Source: Cyanobium sp. Cruz-8D1 (GTDB lineage Bacteria; Cyanobacteriota; Cyanobacteriia; PCC-6307; Cyanobiaceae). Taken from it: a DNA stretch of 64,000 nt. Positions 8,628-59,791 of this stretch are shown piece by piece (position 1 is the first letter of the stretch; each line of letters starts with the position of its first letter). The position numbers and the translations under genes were made by a program. The stretch is from assembly GCF_024345975.1 (NCBI RefSeq), contig NZ_JAGQCD010000001.1:62001-126000 (forward strand), written 5' to 3'. A model generated the notes under the pieces. That model saw nothing but the letters and a program-made list of their open reading frames with translations, had not been told where the DNA came from and searched no databases.

Positions 8628-9682
8628 TGCGGAGCCACCATGGAACCGCCGGCCCCTGCCGGCAACGGGGCGGCGGGCGGAACTTCGGCCGCGGGGGCTG
8701 CGGTAACCGGTGGGGGTGCGATCGGGGCACTCGCCACCGGCGCCACCTTGGCAGGGGCCGGTGTGGCCCGAATCTCAGCCGGGATCGGCTGCAGATTCAC
8801 CACCGTGGGGGTGACCGTTCCAGGGGCCTGGGCCGGCTGGCGCCTCGACCACTCCTTGATGTCCTCGATCACTGCGGGATCATCGGGTTTGCTGAGCACA
8901 TCCACGGTGCCATCCGCCTGAACGGCCAGCGGCACCTGGGTTGGTTTGCTGACACGGGTGGAGGGGACGTGGATCACGCGGCCCTGCTGAAGTTTGGCTG
9001 TCTTGGTGGGGGTCGGGGTCGGCAGGGTGCGGATGGCCTGGCGCATCGGCTCCCTCAGGCTCTGGGGCAGGGGGGCCATGGGATCTCCGCTTCTGGCCCA
9101 TCGGGCCCGCTCGGCCCTGGCCACCGGTGGCATGGCAGGGGCACCCAGGTCCTGAATGGTGAGCACGCCACCGAGCAGCTCGGAATTCGAGAAATTGCGT
9201 TGCAGCAGGGTCTTGGCGCTGCCCAGGCCGGTGGTGCCGAGAGAAGGGCCCTCGATGGTGAAGCTGGCCTTGGCGGTGCGGGCAGGGCTGGTGGTCCTGA
9301 GGGCGACGGCAGGGCGGCGACCCGGATCGGGCCTGGCTCGGGAGGAGTTGGAGGGACCGCTCAGGTCGAGACTGCGCGACAGCGGGGCATCCAGCAGCGA
9401 CCCGCTCTTCTCGGAGGCCGAACTGAGCACATGGCCAGTGGTAACGCCCAGATCCTCAAGCGGCGAAGGGGAGGCGCTGTCCGCCTTCTGGGCGGGTTCC
9501 TCGGGCAGCGAAGCGATCGCCTCAGCCGCGCCCTTGGGATCGGCGGGCTGGGGGATGGCCAGGTCCTTGATGGTGGCCTGCCAGCGATCGTGGGCATCGA
9601 TGGCCAGCAGGGGCAGCCAGATGGTGTGGCTCAGCAGAGCCCAGGCGATGGCCTTGCGGCTGATGGAGGGTTCGCGGTACAT
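8624..9682 (-). CDS. Membrane-anchored, proline/alanine-rich periplasmic protein
   Basis: This is a 352-residue protein with one likely N-terminal membrane segment (about residues 10-28, KAIAWALLSHTIWLPLLAI) and a long extracytoplasmic tail. The tail is rich in Pro, Ala, Ser and Thr, especially the last 60 residues, and has no catalytic motif I can see. The layout of a short cytoplasmic end, one helix and a long extended spacer resembles TonB-like or periplasm-spanning adaptors. This is a comparison of shape, not homology. The stop overlaps the start of the beta-barrel gene by four bases (ATGA). It lies 53 bases after the Wza-type gene, so the three are probably one operon. Confidence 0.65.
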   Translation of the reverse strand: MYREPSISRKAIAWALLSHTIWLPLLAIDAHDRWQATIKDLAIPQPADPKGAAEAIASLPEEPAQKADSASPSPLEDLGVTTGHVLSSASEKSGSLLDAPLSRSLDLSGPSNSSRARPDPGRRPAVALRTTSPARTAKASFTIEGPSLGTTGLGSAKTLLQRNFSNSELLGGVLTIQDLGAPAMPPVARAERARWARSGDPMAPLPQSLREPMRQAIRTLPTPTPTKTAKLQQGRVIHVPSTRVSKPTQVPLAVQADGTVDVLSKPDDPAVIEDIKEWSRRQPAQAPGTVTPTVVNLQPIPAEIRATPAPAKVAPVASAPIAPPPVTAAPAAEVPPAAPLPAGAGGSMVAPQ

Positions 9683-37606: not shown

Positions 37607-38924
37607 GGGGAGCACTGGGATGGTCGAGCCGGCCCGCCGCAGCCAGCAATGCCGCTTCCGCCGCCCCATCGCTCGCGCCGCTGGAATGGGGCCACTCGCT
37701 GCCGGCGCTGTGGTGGCGGAAGCGCTGCCCCAGCAGTCGGCGCAGATCCTCACCGCGGCGGCGGCCCAGCCAGCGATCCAGCCGCCCGGCGGGGGCCGGA
37801 TCCGGTTCAGGGGGGATCTCTGGGAGCCAGGGAAGCTCCATCACCTGTGTGAGGGCCCGTCGCCAGGCCGCCAGGGAGGCACTCCCGCTGTAGCGCCTGG
37901 CCACCAGGGCGTGGCCGGCCCGGGACAGCCGCTGCAGCAGGGCGCCCTGCCGCAGCCGTGCCAGTTGGGCGGCGGCGGCGGCGACATCGCCGCAGGGGAA
38001 GAGCAGGGCCGTGGCGTCGTGCTCCAGGGCCCCCTCCAGGCCCGACCCCACATAGCGGCTGCTGACCACCGCCATGCCACTGGCCATGGCCTGCCAGGCC
38101 ACGATCGGGCCCGTTTCCCAGGCCGAGGTGATCACCAGGGCATGGTGATCTCCATAGATTTCTTTGGCCAGGCGGGGCTGGTCGACGTGGCCGAGCATCC
38201 GCACGCTGCCCCGCCCGATCCAGGGCGCCAGGGATCGCTCCAGGGACGGACGCTCCTCGCCGTCGCCGGCAATGTTGAGCTGCAGATTGAGGCCCAGGGC
38301 CTCGAGAGCTGTCAGCAGCGGCGGCAGATCGTGCACCCGTTTCTGGGCCTGCTCCAGCCGGCCCACCCAGGCCAGTTTCAAAGTGGCGGCCGGATCGCCT
38401 TCGGGGGCCTGCCAGGGCGGCACCGGCACGCCATAGGGGGCATAGAGCACCCTGCCGGGATCCATCCCGCCCAGCTCGCTCGCCAGCCGGCAGGCCAGCC
38501 GATTGGTGGCGATCACCGCGTCGATGCCGTCGCCGTGGCGCCGCAGGTCGTCGAAGTACTCCGCCTGCAGCGCGTGCAACGTCATCACCACCCGTCCGTG
38601 GAAGCGACCCTGGCGACGGGCCCGTTGGGCCGCGGGATAGAGATCGACCAGGTTGACGCCGAGCACGAGCTGGGGATTGAGCCCTCCCAGCAGGTCGGCG
38701 ATGGCACGAATCCTGCCTTCGGCGCTGCCACTGGGGTTGGCGAGCGGTTGGGCTGAAAGCGCCGGATAGGCCTGGTCGTAGGGGCCATGGCGGTGGTGGT
38801 CGCCATTGGGAACCGCCACCGTCACCTCGTGCCCGCCGGCCCGCAGGCCCGGAACCAGGCTGGCCAGCCAGTCCTGGACCCCGCCGAGCAGATAGGCGGA
38901 GGGGGCGAGCACCAGGACCCTCAT
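37599..38924 (-). CDS. Family 4-type glycosyltransferase
   Basis: This is a 441-residue GT-B enzyme. ATG at 38924 begins VLVLAPSAYLLGGVQDWLASL, the usual N-terminal fold with a glycine-rich loop. The donor domain contains LAWVGRLEQAQKRVHDLPPLL, LNIAGDGEERPSLE, LVITSAWETGPIVAWQAMASGMAVVSS and GSGLEGALEHD. The E-x7-E helix is represented by ETGPIVAWQ, in which the second Glu is replaced by Gln. The C-terminal 70 residues are Pro/Arg-rich and probably disordered. It overlaps both neighbours. Confidence 0.88.
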   Translation of the reverse strand: MRVLVLAPSAYLLGGVQDWLASLVPGLRAGGHEVTVAVPNGDHHRHGPYDQAYPALSAQPLANPSGSAEGRIRAIADLLGGLNPQLVLGVNLVDLYPAAQRARRQGRFHGRVVMTLHALQAEYFDDLRRHGDGIDAVIATNRLACRLASELGGMDPGRVLYAPYGVPVPPWQAPEGDPAATLKLAWVGRLEQAQKRVHDLPPLLTALEALGLNLQLNIAGDGEERPSLERSLAPWIGRGSVRMLGHVDQPRLAKEIYGDHHALVITSAWETGPIVAWQAMASGMAVVSSRYVGSGLEGALEHDATALLFPCGDVAAAAAQLARLRQGALLQRLSRAGHALVARRYSGSASLAAWRRALTQVMELPWLPEIPPEPDPAPAGRLDRWLGRRRGEDLRRLLGQRFRHHSAGSEWPHSSGASDGAAEAALLAAAGRLDHPSAPHG

Positions 38925-54349: not shown

Positions 54350-54856
54350 TCAGGCGTCGCCCCCCGGCTGGCTGCGGGAACCAGGCCACAGCCACACCGC
54401 CAGCAGGGCGACGCCCGTGCCGATGCAGGATTCCAGAAAGCGCAGCAGGGCGTTCACACCCGGACTCAGGGCGGGATCCAGGCTGCCGGTGACCATCACG
54501 ACGATCACCGTGATCGCCGCCAGACGGCCGTGGCTGGGCACGTTGATCGCCGCGCAGATCATCACCGTGGCGAAGATCGCCGCGGCCATGCCGAGGGGGT
54601 GAAAGGGCAGCAACGTCAGGTACACCGCACTGGTGATGGCGCCGATCGCCGATCCCAGAATCCGCAGCGAGGCGGAGGAGGCCGCATCCTTGCGGGTGAC
54701 CTGGGTCACGACGACGGCGGAGATCGCCGACCAGAGCCCGCCGATCTTGGGCAGATAGCCCGGGAACAGGCTCGTGAACCAGAAGCCCAGTAGGTAGGCC
54801 ACCAGGGCGGCCAACGCGATCTGGGCCGGGATGCGCAGTCGTTCGGCGCTGTTCAT
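54350..54856 (-). CDS. FUSC-type membrane protein, putative aromatic-acid or inner-membrane transporter
   Basis: This is a 168-residue protein with about five hydrophobic segments. Its layout resembles the N-terminal membrane half of FUSC/YccS/AaeB proteins: LAALVAYLLGFWFTSLFPGY, GGLWSAISAVVVTQVTRKDAASSASLRILGSAIGAI, and SHGRLAAITVIVVMVTGSL. The WSAISAVVVTQ segment is the most diagnostic. It lacks the soluble C-terminal domain of longer family members. The ATG overlaps the phoH stop by four bases, indicating coupling. Substrate is unknown. Confidence 0.8.
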   Translation of the reverse strand: MNSAERLRIPAQIALAALVAYLLGFWFTSLFPGYLPKIGGLWSAISAVVVTQVTRKDAASSASLRILGSAIGAITSAVYLTLLPFHPLGMAAAIFATVMICAAINVPSHGRLAAITVIVVMVTGSLDPALSPGVNALLRFLESCIGTGVALLAVWLWPGSRSQPGGDA

Positions 54857-55869
54857 GGTTCCGATCGGACGGGGGTGCTATCCATCCGCTTCCTGGCCGG
54901 GGGGGCCGGTGGGCGGGCATCGCGTCGGGCGTAGGCCTGCACCAGACGCTGGACCAGGGGGTGGCGCACCACATCCGCATCGCTGAACTGGCAGATGGCC
55001 ACGCCCTCCACCCCCTGCAGCACCTGCTCCGCCTCCACCAGGCCGCTCAGCTGGCCCGGGGGAAGATCGATCTGGGTGGTGTCTCCCGTCACGACCATGC
55101 GGGAATTTTCCCCCAGCCGGGTGAGCACCATCCGCATCTGGGCGCAGGTGGTGTTCTGGGCCTCATCGAGGATCACGAAGGCGTCGGCCAACGTGCGGCC
55201 GCGCATGAAGGCCAGGGGCGCCACCTCGATCACCCCCTTCTCCAGGAGCTGGGTGGTCCGTTCCTGGCCCAGCAGCCCATGCAGGGCGTCATAGAGGGGA
55301 CGCAGATAGGGATCCACCTTCTGTTGCAGGTCACCGGGCAGGAAGCCGAGCCGTTCGCCCGCTTCCACCGCCGGTCGTGTGAGCACAAGCCGCTCCACCT
55401 TGCGCTCTTGCAACATCCGCACGGCCAGGATCGTGGCGAGGAACGTCTTGCCGGTGCCGGCCGGGCCGATCGCCAGGGTCAGGTCGTGGCGTTCGATCGC
55501 CTCAACGTAGCTGTTCTGCCGCAGAGTGCGGGGCCGCAGCGGCCGGCCGGTGATGCTGGTGGCCAGCACCTGGAGCCCCATGCGGCGGTGCTGGTCGGAG
55601 CGGCCGGTGTCCAGGGCCGCCATGGCGGCCTGGATGTCCACCGGGCCGATGGACTCCCCCCGTTGCCAGAGGGGCTCAAGCAACTGGATCAAAGCCTGCA
55701 GTCGCTCCACTTGGGCCGTTCGGCCCCTGATCTGAAGGTCGAGACCCCGCAACACAATCTGGGCGCCTGTGAGGGCTTCAAGCCGCCGCAGGGAGGCCCC
55801 ATCCGCCCCGGCCAGGGCAACGGCAGCACCGCTGTCAGGCAGGGAAAACGTGGAGGAGAGTTCGCTCAG
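54853..55869 (-). CDS. phoH: PhoH-family ATPase, apparent CTG start
   Basis: This is a P-loop ATPase of the PhoH/YbeZ family, linked to ribosome and RNA maturation with YbeY. Walker A is GPAGTGKT (residues 135-142) and Walker B ILDEAQN (about 233-239); GDTTQIDLP is the helicase-type motif. No ATG, GTG or TTG lies between the upstream stop at 55894-55896 and GTG 55755. Yet the frame there encodes the usual N-terminal PhoH segment ([17 protein letters not shown]). CTG at 55867-55869 makes a CTGA overlap with the rpsP stop, the same four-base geometry used by many genes here. GTG 55755 would remove 38 residues of the domain. Confidence 0.9.
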
Positions 55870-56291
55870 GCCTCGGCGGTGGCAGGGTCGGCTTCAGCGG
55901 CAGCGGCGGCTTCAACGGCGGCAGCGGCTTCCTCAGCCAGCTTGGCCGCAGCCGCTTGCTTGGCGGCTTCCGCTTCCTTGACGGCGGCGGCAGCGGCGGC
56001 CTCGCGGGCCGCGGCCTGCTTGAGCTTGCCGACGGTTTCGGCGGGCCGGATGGTCTTCTCGATCAGGCCGCCCTTCTCAAGCAGGGTGCGCACGGTGTCG
56101 GTGGGTTGGGCTCCCTGGCCGAGGCGGAGCCGGATGGCCTCCGTGTCCAGGCGGGTTTCCTTGGTGCGGGGGTTGTAGAAGCCCAGCTCCTCGAGCGGAC
56201 GGCCATCGCGGCGGGAGGTGCTGTTGGTGGCCACCAGACGGAAACTCGCTTCCCGTTTCTTGCCGAACCGCTTCAGCCGGAGCTTGATCAT
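55866..56291 (-). CDS. rpsP: Ribosomal protein bS16 with alanine-rich C-terminal extension
   Basis: This is a small-subunit ribosomal protein. Residues 1-85 carry the S16 fold: [20 protein letters not shown], a variable loop with [17 protein letters not shown] and [17 protein letters not shown]. The following 55 residues are an Ala/Glu/Lys helix ([20 protein letters not shown]) not found in E. coli S16, but similar tails occur in picocyanobacteria. The tail is encoded by GCG/GCC-rich DNA and is a likely recombination-prone stretch. Its stop codon overlaps the proposed CTG start of phoH. It is followed by phoH and preceded by ffh on the same strand. Confidence 0.97.
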
Positions 56292-56336: not shown

Positions 56337-57815
56337 TCAGAGCTGACCAAACCCCTTGCGTTTTTTGGCCGGCTTGGGGGGCCTGGGTGGCTTGCCACCG
56401 CCGCGGCCGCCGGGACCACCCATTCCGGGCATGCCACCAGCCATTCCGGGCATCCCGCCCATGCCCGGCATACCACCCATCCCAGGAAAGCCACCCATGC
56501 CCGGCAGGCCTGGCATGCCACCGCGGGTCATCTGCTGCATGAAGCCGCGCATCTTCTGGAAGTCGGCGAGAACCTTGTCCACGTCAGCCGATGTATGGCC
56601 ACTGCCGGCGGCGATGCGGCGCCGACGGGAGGGCTGGGAGGCGAGCAGTTCGGGCTGACGGCGTTCGGCCTCGGTCATCGATCCGATCATGGCCTCGATG
56701 CGCTTCAGCTGGCTCTCGCCCTGCCTCAGCATGCCGTCATCGATCTTGTTCATCCCCGGGATCAGCTTCATCAGCCCGCCCAGGGAGCCCATGCGCTTGA
56801 TCAGGCGCATCTGCTGGACGAAATCGGAGAAATCGAAGCTGGCTTCCTGCAGCTTGCGCTGCATCTTCTCCACATCGGCCAGCTCCACCTCCTTGGTGGC
56901 CTTCTCCACCAGGGTGAGCACATCGCCCATCCCCAGGATCCGGCTCGCCATCCGCTCCGGGTGGAACGGCTGCAGCGCCTCCACCTTCTCGCCGGTGCCG
57001 ATGAACTTGATCGGCGCGCCGCTCACCTTGCGGATCGAGAGCGCCGCACCGCCCCGGGAATCCCCATCCAGCTTGGTGAGCACGGCGCCGGTGATGCCCA
57101 CCTGCTCATGGAAGGCGCGGGTGAGTTCGGCGGCCTCCTGGCCGATCATCGAATCCACCACCAGCAGCACCTCATCCGGGGCCGCCGCCTCCCGGATCCG
57201 AACCATCTCCTCCATCATCGCGGTGTCGATCTGGAGCCGACCGGCGGTATCCACCAGCACGGTGTCGAAGCCCTCGTCCCGTCCCTTGGCCACGCCGGCG
57301 GCAGCGATCGCTTCGGGCTTGGCGTCACTGCCGAGGCTGAACACCTCCACGCCGATCTGGCGGCCCAGGGTCTGCAGCTGGTCAATGGCAGCCGGCCGGT
57401 AGACGTCGGCGGCCACCAGCAGGGGACGCCGACCCTGCTCCTTGAGGTGCAGGCCCAGCTTGGCGGTGGCGGTGGTCTTGCCGGCCCCCTGCAGACCGGC
57501 CATCAGGATCACCGTGGGGCCGTCCGTCGCTCGGGCCAGGGGGGCGTTTGCACCGCCCATGGTGTCGACGAGCTGCTCGTGGACCAGCTGGATGAACTTC
57601 TGATCCGGGCTCACCCCGCGCACCACCTCGGACCCCACGGCCTTGCGCCGCACCTCTTCGACGAACTCCTTCACCACCGACAGGCTCACGTCGGCCTCCA
57701 GCAGCGCCCGTCTCACTTCCTTGAGGGCGCCATCGACGTTCGTTTCCGAAATGGCCGCCTGGCCGCGCAGTCCTTTGACGGCGTCTTCGAAGCGCTGGGA
57801 GAGTTCGTCGAACAT
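56337..57815 (-). CDS. ffh: Signal recognition particle protein Ffh
   Basis: Ffh binds signal sequences and SRP RNA and targets nascent membrane and exported proteins to FtsY. The 492-residue protein has the N domain (1-90), the GTPase with GLQGAGKTT (107-115), DTAGRLQ and TKLDGDSRGGAAL, and the methionine-rich M domain (from about 320, with MRLIKRMGSLGGLMKLIPGM). The C-terminus is extended by Gly/Met/Pro repeats and a basic end (KKRKGFGQL). ATG at 57815 forms TGATG with the ftn2 stop. The larger frame to 58382 overlaps ftn2 and is rejected. Confidence 0.97.
   Translation of the reverse strand: MFDELSQRFEDAVKGLRGQAAISETNVDGALKEVRRALLEADVSLSVVKEFVEEVRRKAVGSEVVRGVSPDQKFIQLVHEQLVDTMGGANAPLARATDGPTVILMAGLQGAGKTTATAKLGLHLKEQGRRPLLVAADVYRPAAIDQLQTLGRQIGVEVFSLGSDAKPEAIAAAGVAKGRDEGFDTVLVDTAGRLQIDTAMMEEMVRIREAAAPDEVLLVVDSMIGQEAAELTRAFHEQVGITGAVLTKLDGDSRGGAALSIRKVSGAPIKFIGTGEKVEALQPFHPERMASRILGMGDVLTLVEKATKEVELADVEKMQRKLQEASFDFSDFVQQMRLIKRMGSLGGLMKLIPGMNKIDDGMLRQGESQLKRIEAMIGSMTEAERRQPELLASQPSRRRRIAAGSGHTSADVDKVLADFQKMRGFMQQMTRGGMPGLPGMGGFPGMGGMPGMGGMPGMAGGMPGMGGPGGRGGGKPPRPPKPAKKRKGFGQL
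56396..56525 (-). repeat. Gly-Met-Pro-rich repeat in the Ffh C-terminus
   Basis: About ten degenerate copies of a GMPGMGG-like unit are encoded by repeated CCCGGCATGCC-type DNA. It is a normal feature of cyanobacterial Ffh but could vary in copy number. Confidence 0.75.
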
Positions 57816-59791
57816 CAGTTGAAGGATTGGGTGGCCGCCAGGCGCCAGCTGTCGCCGTCGCGTCCGAATACATAACCATTGCGCAGTTGCAGCGGCGCCG
57901 TGGTCTCCACCACCTTTCCGCTTGCATCGAGGCGCCGGTCGCTGTAGCGGAGCCGGACGACGGCGACGATGCGCTGGGGGCCGCTTTCGGACAGGCTGAG
58001 ATCGGTGATCCGCACGTCCAGCTGCTGGCTCTGGCCTCGGGCGGCATCGCTGCGGCGCTCCTTGGCGAGCAGGGCGATCGGCCCCTCCCGGGCGATGCGA
58101 TCCAGATCCTGCGGGATCGGTTCGCCCGCCAGCACGCCACTTTTCACCGTCAGCCAGTTCTCCAGCAGGCGGCGGACCTGGGCCGCATCGGGCCGACTGG
58201 CGGTGAGCGGGGTGATCCTCAGCCCCGTCGCGGCCCTCGGGGCCGGCGTCGGTGCGGTGGGGGCCGGGGAGGTGACCGGTGGTGCTGGCGGTGGAGCCGG
58301 TGGGGGTGAACTCTGGCGCTGCCGCAGCACCCAGGCCGCGGCCAGCACCAGCACCAGAACGGCGCCGCCCCCCAGCAGCCATGGCCTGGTGGGCACCGGC
58401 CAGCGCAAGGGAACCTCGTCATCGAGCTCCCCGTCATCCTCGGGACCCGGGGCCATGCCGGATGCAGGCAGCGGGGCGAAGCCGCCGGCGGTGGCCCCCT
58501 CCAGGGTCAGGGCTGCAGGGGGCGACATCGTCCCCGGGAAGCGGAGGTCGTCGAAGGGAGGGAAGACCGTGCTGTCCGCACCCTCCACGGCTGCCGGGGA
58601 GGTGAGATAGGCCCGGCCCCTGCGCTGATCCTCCCGTTCGACATAGGCCACCACGTCCCGGTCACTGAAGTAGGCCACCAGATCGGGCTCGGCTTCCAGG
58701 TCCCGGTAGCCCGGCAGCACATCCCGCACCAGCCAGTCGCTGCAATAGGCGCAGAGTTGACCCAGGGGATCAACACTTTTACCGGCGGCCCAGTCCTTCA
58801 GGTCCTGGCTGGCCCCCTGGTCGAAGCAGGCCCGCGCCGTGTCGGCCTCACCCAGCAGCAGATGCAGGTTGGCGAGCAGCGGTTCGATGCCCTCCCGGCC
58901 ACTGCGCTGCAGGCGGTGTCTGGCCTCGGCGATGCGCTCGGGCTTGCGCTGGGCGAAACCGGAGGCGGTCAGGGCGATGGTGGCCAGGAAGTCGGCGGCG
59001 TCGGAGCCGGTGGCCGCCCAGCGGCTGAACAGATCCACCTGCTCCTGAACCGTGAGAAAGGCGCGGATCTGGTGGAAGAAGGGCTGGAAGTCCTGGCTGG
59101 GGAACTGGGGATCGCCATCGCCCTCGAGGCCCCCGCGCCGCTGCACCAGCTGTTCGAGCAGCGCCAGACCTTCCTGCCGCTCCACGCCGGCCACCAGATC
59201 CCGGCTCAGCAGGTCGAGCACCCGGTAGGGCGTGAGGTGGTCCAGCTGGCTATGCATGGTTTCTCTGAGGTCGGGTTGCCGGCCCAGGCGTTGCAGCAGC
59301 TGCAGACCCTGCTGCAGGGTGCGGGCGGCGGCTTCGAAGCGTCGCTGTTCCTCCAGTTCGCTGGCGGCCGCGAGGCAGGCCAACCCCGCCAGGAGCGTGA
59401 GATCGCCTTCGCGGCCGCTGCCGAGGGTGGGTGACTGGGGTGGCTGCAGCGAACGGCTGGCGAGCTCAAAGGCCTCCAGGGGCTGGCCCCCCTCCATCAG
59501 CAACACCAGCCCGCCCACCTGCCGGGCCGTGGCAATCTCCAGGGCCGGCTGCAGGGTGCCGTCGGTGTTGGCCAGGCTCGTCAGTTCCGCCTCGTAGGCA
59601 GCGCGCCGATCGGCATCGGAGAGCAGGTCGGCGCTGGCCCGAAGCAACTCCGCACGCGCCTGCAGGGTTTCGGGGCTGAACCCTCCGTGGGGCAGACGGT
59701 CCAGGCGCGACTGCAGGGTGCGCAGGACCCCCTGGGCATCGGCGGACGAAGGCACACCCAGCAAGCGGAAATGATCGATCGGCAGGTCCAA
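57815..59791 (-). CDS. ftn2: Cell division protein Ftn2/ZipN (ARC6-like)
   Basis: This is the cyanobacterial counterpart of chloroplast ARC6, which tethers FtsZ to the membrane and recruits other divisome proteins. The 658-residue protein begins with a J-like domain (DLPIDHFRLLGVPSSADAQGVLRTLQ, about 1-75). A long helical central part follows. A proline-rich hinge and one membrane helix (about 470-488, LLGGGAVLVLVLAAAWVL) lead to a C-terminal IMS-type domain (about 530-655, ending in SWRLAATQSFN). The start is TTG at 59791, in the sequence TTG GAC CTG CCG, where relatives have a Met before the same motif. It is divergent from pdhA. Confidence 0.9.
   Translation of the reverse strand: MDLPIDHFRLLGVPSSADAQGVLRTLQSRLDRLPHGGFSPETLQARAELLRASADLLSDADRRAAYEAELTSLANTDGTLQPALEIATARQVGGLVLLMEGGQPLEAFELASRSLQPPQSPTLGSGREGDLTLLAGLACLAAASELEEQRRFEAAARTLQQGLQLLQRLGRQPDLRETMHSQLDHLTPYRVLDLLSRDLVAGVERQEGLALLEQLVQRRGGLEGDGDPQFPSQDFQPFFHQIRAFLTVQEQVDLFSRWAATGSDAADFLATIALTASGFAQRKPERIAEARHRLQRSGREGIEPLLANLHLLLGEADTARACFDQGASQDLKDWAAGKSVDPLGQLCAYCSDWLVRDVLPGYRDLEAEPDLVAYFSDRDVVAYVEREDQRRGRAYLTSPAAVEGADSTVFPPFDDLRFPGTMSPPAALTLEGATAGGFAPLPASGMAPGPEDDGELDDEVPLRWPVPTRPWLLGGGAVLVLVLAAAWVLRQRQSSPPPAPPPAPPVTSPAPTAPTPAPRAATGLRITPLTASRPDAAQVRRLLENWLTVKSGVLAGEPIPQDLDRIAREGPIALLAKERRSDAARGQSQQLDVRITDLSLSESGPQRIVAVVRLRYSDRRLDASGKVVETTAPLQLRNGYVFGRDGDSWRLAATQSFN

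Follow-up and report, generated by a model that had tools for sequence, protein, structure and literature searches.

A candidate CTG start codon of phoH in a four-base overlap with rpsP, retained across most of a Cyanobium-like genus

CTG start codons are known in bacterial genes yet rare. An analysis quoted in the available part of PMC11983097 gave 20 of nearly 85,000 genes (0.024%) annotated with a CTG start, and a reconstruction reported in the accessible portion of PMC5622118 recovered 2 of 61,358 AUG starts switched to CUG. According to the same excerpts of PMC11983097, the rep gene of FIB replicons possesses a CTG initiator, while most database records set the beginning of the gene 14 codons further on, at a GTG; a CTC mutation abolishes function, ATG or TTG substitutions are harmless, and a GTG substitution inactivated one replicon, an effect ascribed to a hairpin. 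The authors suggested selection for just enough expression. Four-base overlaps of adjacent genes form a second point of reference: as described in the sections available from PMC10666635, reinitiation requires very short distances, 4-nt and 1-nt overlaps are by far the commonest, and in the four-base-overlap pairs the start overlaps the upstream TGA as NTGA. The third is the rpsP-phoH pair of other picocyanobacteria, in which phoH has an ATG or GTG 8-17 nt downstream of rpsP.

The phoH gene described herein shares features with each of these systems. Like FIB rep, it has a CTG as its putative initiator and a GTG downstream at which the start is easily placed, but FIB rep resides on a plasmid, has a good ribosome-binding site and owes the proof of its CTG start to experiment, and no stop/start overlap is described for it in the excerpted text. 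The NTGA arrangement is that of the overlapping pairs in PMC10666635, in the text of which, unlike at rpsP-phoH, a word search found neither CTG nor CUG. With the other picocyanobacterial pairs the gene order is shared and the rpsP ending is mostly the same; those pairs differ in that their canonical start is preceded by a short leader, the length of which need not preserve the frame. This phoH would probably add a chromosomal, genus-wide case, located in a 4-nt overlap, to the few CTG starts described.

The window, that is, the whole stretch of DNA analyzed, comprises 64,000 nucleotides of Cyanobium sp. Cruz-8D1. On its minus strand, rpsP (55866-56291) encodes 30S ribosomal protein S16, the tail of which is rich in Ala (TIGR00002, 3.3e-28; PF00886, 2.6e-18) and ends in GAG GCC TGA, the stop codon occupying 55866-55868. 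The phoH gene (54853-55869, minus strand) reads 338 codons plus a stop from a candidate CTG start at 55867-55869, and its product is a PhoH family protein, matching PF02562 (1.4e-93) over residues 111-313 with 312.5 bits against a cut-off of 27. The last Ala codon of rpsP supplies, as its third base, the C of this CTG, and the CTG shares bases with the rpsP stop as CTGA (55866-55869), which constitutes a 4-nt start/stop overlap on one strand provided that the CTG is the start. According to a gene heuristic, seven more four-base overlaps (six ATGA and one GTGA) occur on the minus strand of the window, in keeping with an earlier sequence-only reading that had regarded such junctions as common here; the ATGA overlap at 38921 also has an earlier in-frame GTG. 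Upstream of rpsP, the ORF list gives a gene that we take to be ffh-like (window 56337-58382) a long extension beginning with ATG, and the conserved part of its product seems to start at MFDELSQRF. A second PF02562 match (G000:C2:81965-82576, L002) lies in a 582-residue open frame and represents a different PhoH-domain protein.

The phoH frame is closed within rpsP by an in-frame TGA at 55894-55896 and remains open from there down to the stop at 54853. The claim that no ATG, GTG or TTG occurs in this frame before the GTG at 55753-55755 (codon 39) was borne out. Approximately 47 codons of GC-rich DNA devoid of a canonical start are unremarkable alone; the stretch counts as real because it encodes conserved PhoH sequence, the 38 codons upstream of the GTG differing from those of one relative by 3/1/19 changes at codon positions 1/2/3, as expected from the proposal that they encode the PhoH N-terminus.

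Orthologues from the genus numbered 41, one of the 42 genomes (G009) having no match beyond a paralogue-like stretch; named members of the genus include Cyanobium sp. Aljojuca 7A6, the PhoH of which is 98% identical, and N5-Cardenillas. In 30 of the 41, the frame contained no ATG, GTG or TTG after its upstream stop and before the conserved LPD motif, and CTGA occurred in the phoH frame in 38, the exceptions being G008, G040 and G031. With L029 and L033 left out, the distance from the CTG to the motif was a multiple of three in 38 of the 39 remaining loci, in spite of nine different lengths ranging from 24 to 189 nt. Some canonical codon preceded the motif in the remaining 11 orthologues: in L013 and L023 it lay within two codons of the motif, eight others (L021, L026, L035-L038, L041 and L042) had the in-frame CTGA plus a canonical codon further downstream, which in L035-L038 and L041 is a +17 codon falling within the first beta strand (beta1) according to the alignment, and the last, L033, is described below. 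A sequencing error at the CTG was judged very unlikely, because the same in-frame CTGA occurs in the 38 orthologues, among them that of the single-contig genome G002. The CTG initiator was thus well supported by the genus-wide comparison, the start-codon alignment keeping the CTG in frame, and we consider it quite probable that phoH is translated from CTG 55867-55869.

Codon-position bias extended close to the junction. Among 17 close genomes, changes in phoH codons 2-9 were distributed 5/1/9 over codon positions 1/2/3, although these counts are small, and those in the last 24 nt of rpsP were distributed 10/9/1. Controls in which the canonical start lies at +14, 28 in number, exhibited no such period in their leaders (13/21/20 changes over 3/4/4 sites), and in a second clade of nine genomes the periodicity of codons 2-17 was weak (12/9/16). 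An AlphaFold2 model of PhoH built from 37 sequences (mean pLDDT 82) predicted beta1 at residues 4-9 (55843-55860, minus strand), the first strand of the N-terminal domain, and a second strand at residues 37-41. P11, A16, A18 and G21, all before codon 39, were invariant in the 37 sequences, and L27 and G35, also upstream of GTG 55755, were invariant as well. Over codons 1-39, just two near-cognate codons, CTG1 and CTG27, were invariant throughout the 17 close genomes; ACG7, CTG10 and CTG19 varied. Given the strands predicted at 4-9 and 37-41, initiation at codon 7, 10 or 39 would truncate the fold, and the predicted position of beta1 would leave codon 1 as the sole near-cognate start in the close clade.

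The sequence-only reading had also taken the exact position of the CTG at the overlap as evidence for the start, an argument that turned out to be weak. In 49 loci of other genera of the family, picked among the best-scoring matches listed, rpsP ended in CTGA (36) or TTGA (13), and the overlap codon was in the phoH frame in 45; 43 of the 49 nevertheless have an ATG or GTG 8-17 nt past the rpsP stop, so that an in-frame CTGA may be present without being a start. In four of these the leader was out of frame (+15 in L058, L072 and L079; +10 in L090), which agrees with the leader being untranslated there. The evidence that counts is the outcome where the downstream ATG is missing.

Such outcomes, with their exceptions, were found in several places. 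The comparison also took in 80 named loci, some of which come from the same genomes as the other sets. In genus g30, a TTG (GCT TGA) occupied the identical codon in five of seven sampled loci and was the only canonical start before the motif in four of these five; as in the Cyanobium-like genus, the ATG at +14 is absent and the overlap codon is a start candidate, the difference being a TTGA overlap and TTG instead of CTG. L054 carried ACG where its relatives carry the ATG at +14, leaving only TTGA, and L147, a Synechococcus sp. BS30m-G31 MAG of another lineage, had CTGATC at the rpsP stop and no canonical start, the latter apparently reflecting an independent loss of the canonical phoH start. 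The overlap codon thus seems to be the fallback once the ATG is lost. Within the genus, L033 (G008:C1:1292571-1293571, from a single-contig genome) was the sole member with the phoH motif 0.33 kb past the rpsP stop, and in-frame ATGs at +196 and +232 are available there among other canonical codons. In L028 (G040) and L029 (G031), phoH shares a frame with the old rpsP TGA and not with the former overlap CTG; the two loci have in common a CTGAGC about 17 nt downstream, the CTG of which is the shared candidate nearest the stop. The rpsP frame of G031 appears shifted, possibly owing to an assembly error.

A history may be proposed in which the ancestral rpsP ended in GCC TGA and phoH began some 14 nt further on, at an ATG that shared the frame of this CTG. 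Once the ATG had disappeared from the Cyanobium-like genus, the overlap codon, being in frame, would have served as the start instead. A tree of 89 loci, based on part of rpsP plus phoH and drawn with support values not shown, placed the genus in one group with g23, L034 pairing with g23 and the other members forming the rest. Since g23 retains the ATG at +14, this tree fits two losses of the ATG within the genus as well as a single loss and its regain in g23.

Ribosomes ending rpsP at the overlapping TGA may reinitiate at once on the CTG, where initiation would employ the ordinary initiator tRNA, and such termination-reinitiation, the most economical mechanism, would likely couple phoH to rpsP. 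PhoH output would in this manner be tied to S16 synthesis and kept low. Complexes on CUG are less stable than those on AUG, GUG or UUG (PMC11497404, in the part available), and a low output of phoH should follow. A search of the genome for an initiator tRNA with its anticodon or GGG/CCC stem altered in favour of CUG revealed none, the one exact match of GGGCTCATAACCC lying in a tRNA-Met with anticodon cat. Three 101-nt folds of the junction RNA gave z values of 0.60, 1.87 and 1.11 and were no more stable than shuffles. A Shine-Dalgarno sequence driving the CTG directly was rejected, because the GAGG at the rpsP end (55871-55874, minus strand) is one base away from the CTG, a spacing too short for a normal site. 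AGG stood directly before NTGA in 31 of 41 overlap-only loci and in 5 of the 47 that possess a canonical start further downstream, a comparison confounded by phylogeny, in which the overlap-only class took in four loci with TTG at +17, three (L013, L023 and L063) with a canonical codon 1-2 codons before the motif, and L028 with its overlap CTG out of frame.

The identity of the first base of the CTG bears on whether a weak start is itself selected. Given its place in the rpsP Ala codon, this C could be replaced by A, G or T without altering S16, and an ATG, GTG or TTG would result. In 39 genus loci ending in GCN-TGA, it underwent no Fitch change, whereas 33 fourfold-degenerate sites of the same genes changed 6.5 times on average; only two of these were unchanged, both with a G majority, and none of the 27 C-majority sites was unchanged, the two slowest having one change. 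Outside the genus, the same base changed four times (32 C and 13 T of 45), vs a mean of 11.3 changes at 25 C-majority sites, three of which had four or fewer. Judging from these counts, the constraint on the C is stronger inside the genus, yet not absent outside, and the rpsP stop context may thus add to it.

It is accordingly a tentative proposal that selection keeps the chromosomal phoH at a deliberately weak, termination-coupled start with a fixed low PhoH:S16 ratio, the CTG having been reached after loss of the ATG because the upstream stop already gave an in-frame NTG; we grade it as possible only, since the constraint exists outside the genus as well. The CTG could equally be the start with its C kept merely by rpsP stop-codon context or a preference for GCC rather than by selected weak initiation, an explanation that we take seriously while stopping short of calling it probable. 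GCC accounts for 569 of the 1044 Ala codons of these tails, more than any other, the C is slow outside the genus too, and in FIB rep the CTG could be raised to ATG or TTG without harm (PMC11983097, as far as the excerpts go); against it stand the absence of any unchanged site among the 27 other C-majority fourfold sites in the genus and the tolerance of T in 13 of 45 loci outside.

The remaining alternatives place the start elsewhere than at CTG 55867-55869. Initiation at another non-canonical codon near the junction, namely ACG7, CTG10 or, in part of the genus, an ATC at codon 2, is improbable as an explanation. The ACG sits near the position of the ancestral ATG, the ATC is present at codon 2 in all nine second-clade genomes, 4 nt after GAGG in seven of them, and G040 and G031 must use something besides the overlap CTG; close relatives, however, turn ACG7 into ACA or ACC and CTG10 into CTC or CTT, codon 2 is AGC in all 17 close-clade genomes, and codons 7 and 10 fall within or beyond the predicted beta1. 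More doubtful still is a programmed -1 frameshift at the rpsP end that would yield an S16-PhoH fusion and dispense with a separate start. While phoH does occupy the -1 frame with respect to rpsP, with the 24 nt between the upstream stop and the CTG open, GAG GCC TGA offers no good -1 slip as judged by eye, the phoH-frame residues upstream of the CTG are not conserved, a TTG occupies the same codon in g30, the two genes are separated in G008, where ATGs can be used, and G040 has a different relative frame. A 300-residue PhoH starting at GTG 55753-55755 with incidental conservation upstream, for which it speaks that this is the first canonical start in the frame and the one software is expected to pick, was rejected as very improbable on account of its non-conservation (GTG in just 12 of 40 orthologues, and among the 17 close ones in 5) and the predicted structure, as the preceding 38 codons evolve as coding sequence (3/1/19), the six invariant residues named above lie upstream, and the codon falls within the predicted strand 37-41, so that beta1 and two helices would be removed.

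With CTG 55867-55869 as the preferred start, the singularity of the case was assessed by a survey of a 288-kb contig for other non-canonical starts, in which 100 coding ORFs were compared with two relatives, within the portion spanned by the relatives' contigs. The survey flagged 40 of the 100 ORFs, extensions under 15 codons being too short to judge; an earlier version had flagged 32 of 104 genes, many of them wrong-frame or upstream-gene artefacts by eye. phoH (38 codons, 3/1/19) provided the only extension longer than 15 codons with more than 70% of its differences at third positions. Weaker third-position bias was seen in short aligned ORFs (67-104 codons) at 8672 (3/3/9), 9041 (3/3/12) and 105559 (4/4/12), and also at 59136 (3/1/5). 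On these alignments, none of the other ORFs among the 100 compared shows as clear a long conserved extension ahead of its first canonical codon as phoH does. Literature searches returned no paper on phoH, rpsP and Synechococcus together and none joining 'CUG start codon' and cyanobacteria, and nothing concerning this gene was among the matches listed.

To our knowledge, common gene callers do not offer CTG, and CTG starts are therefore easily missed. If the first canonical codon is used, phoH would be annotated 38 residues short in this genome, GTG 55753-55755 being the likely site of such mis-annotation. The CTGA, TTGA, ATG+14 and separated versions of this one gene pair provide a system for the trade-off between start strength and reinitiation.
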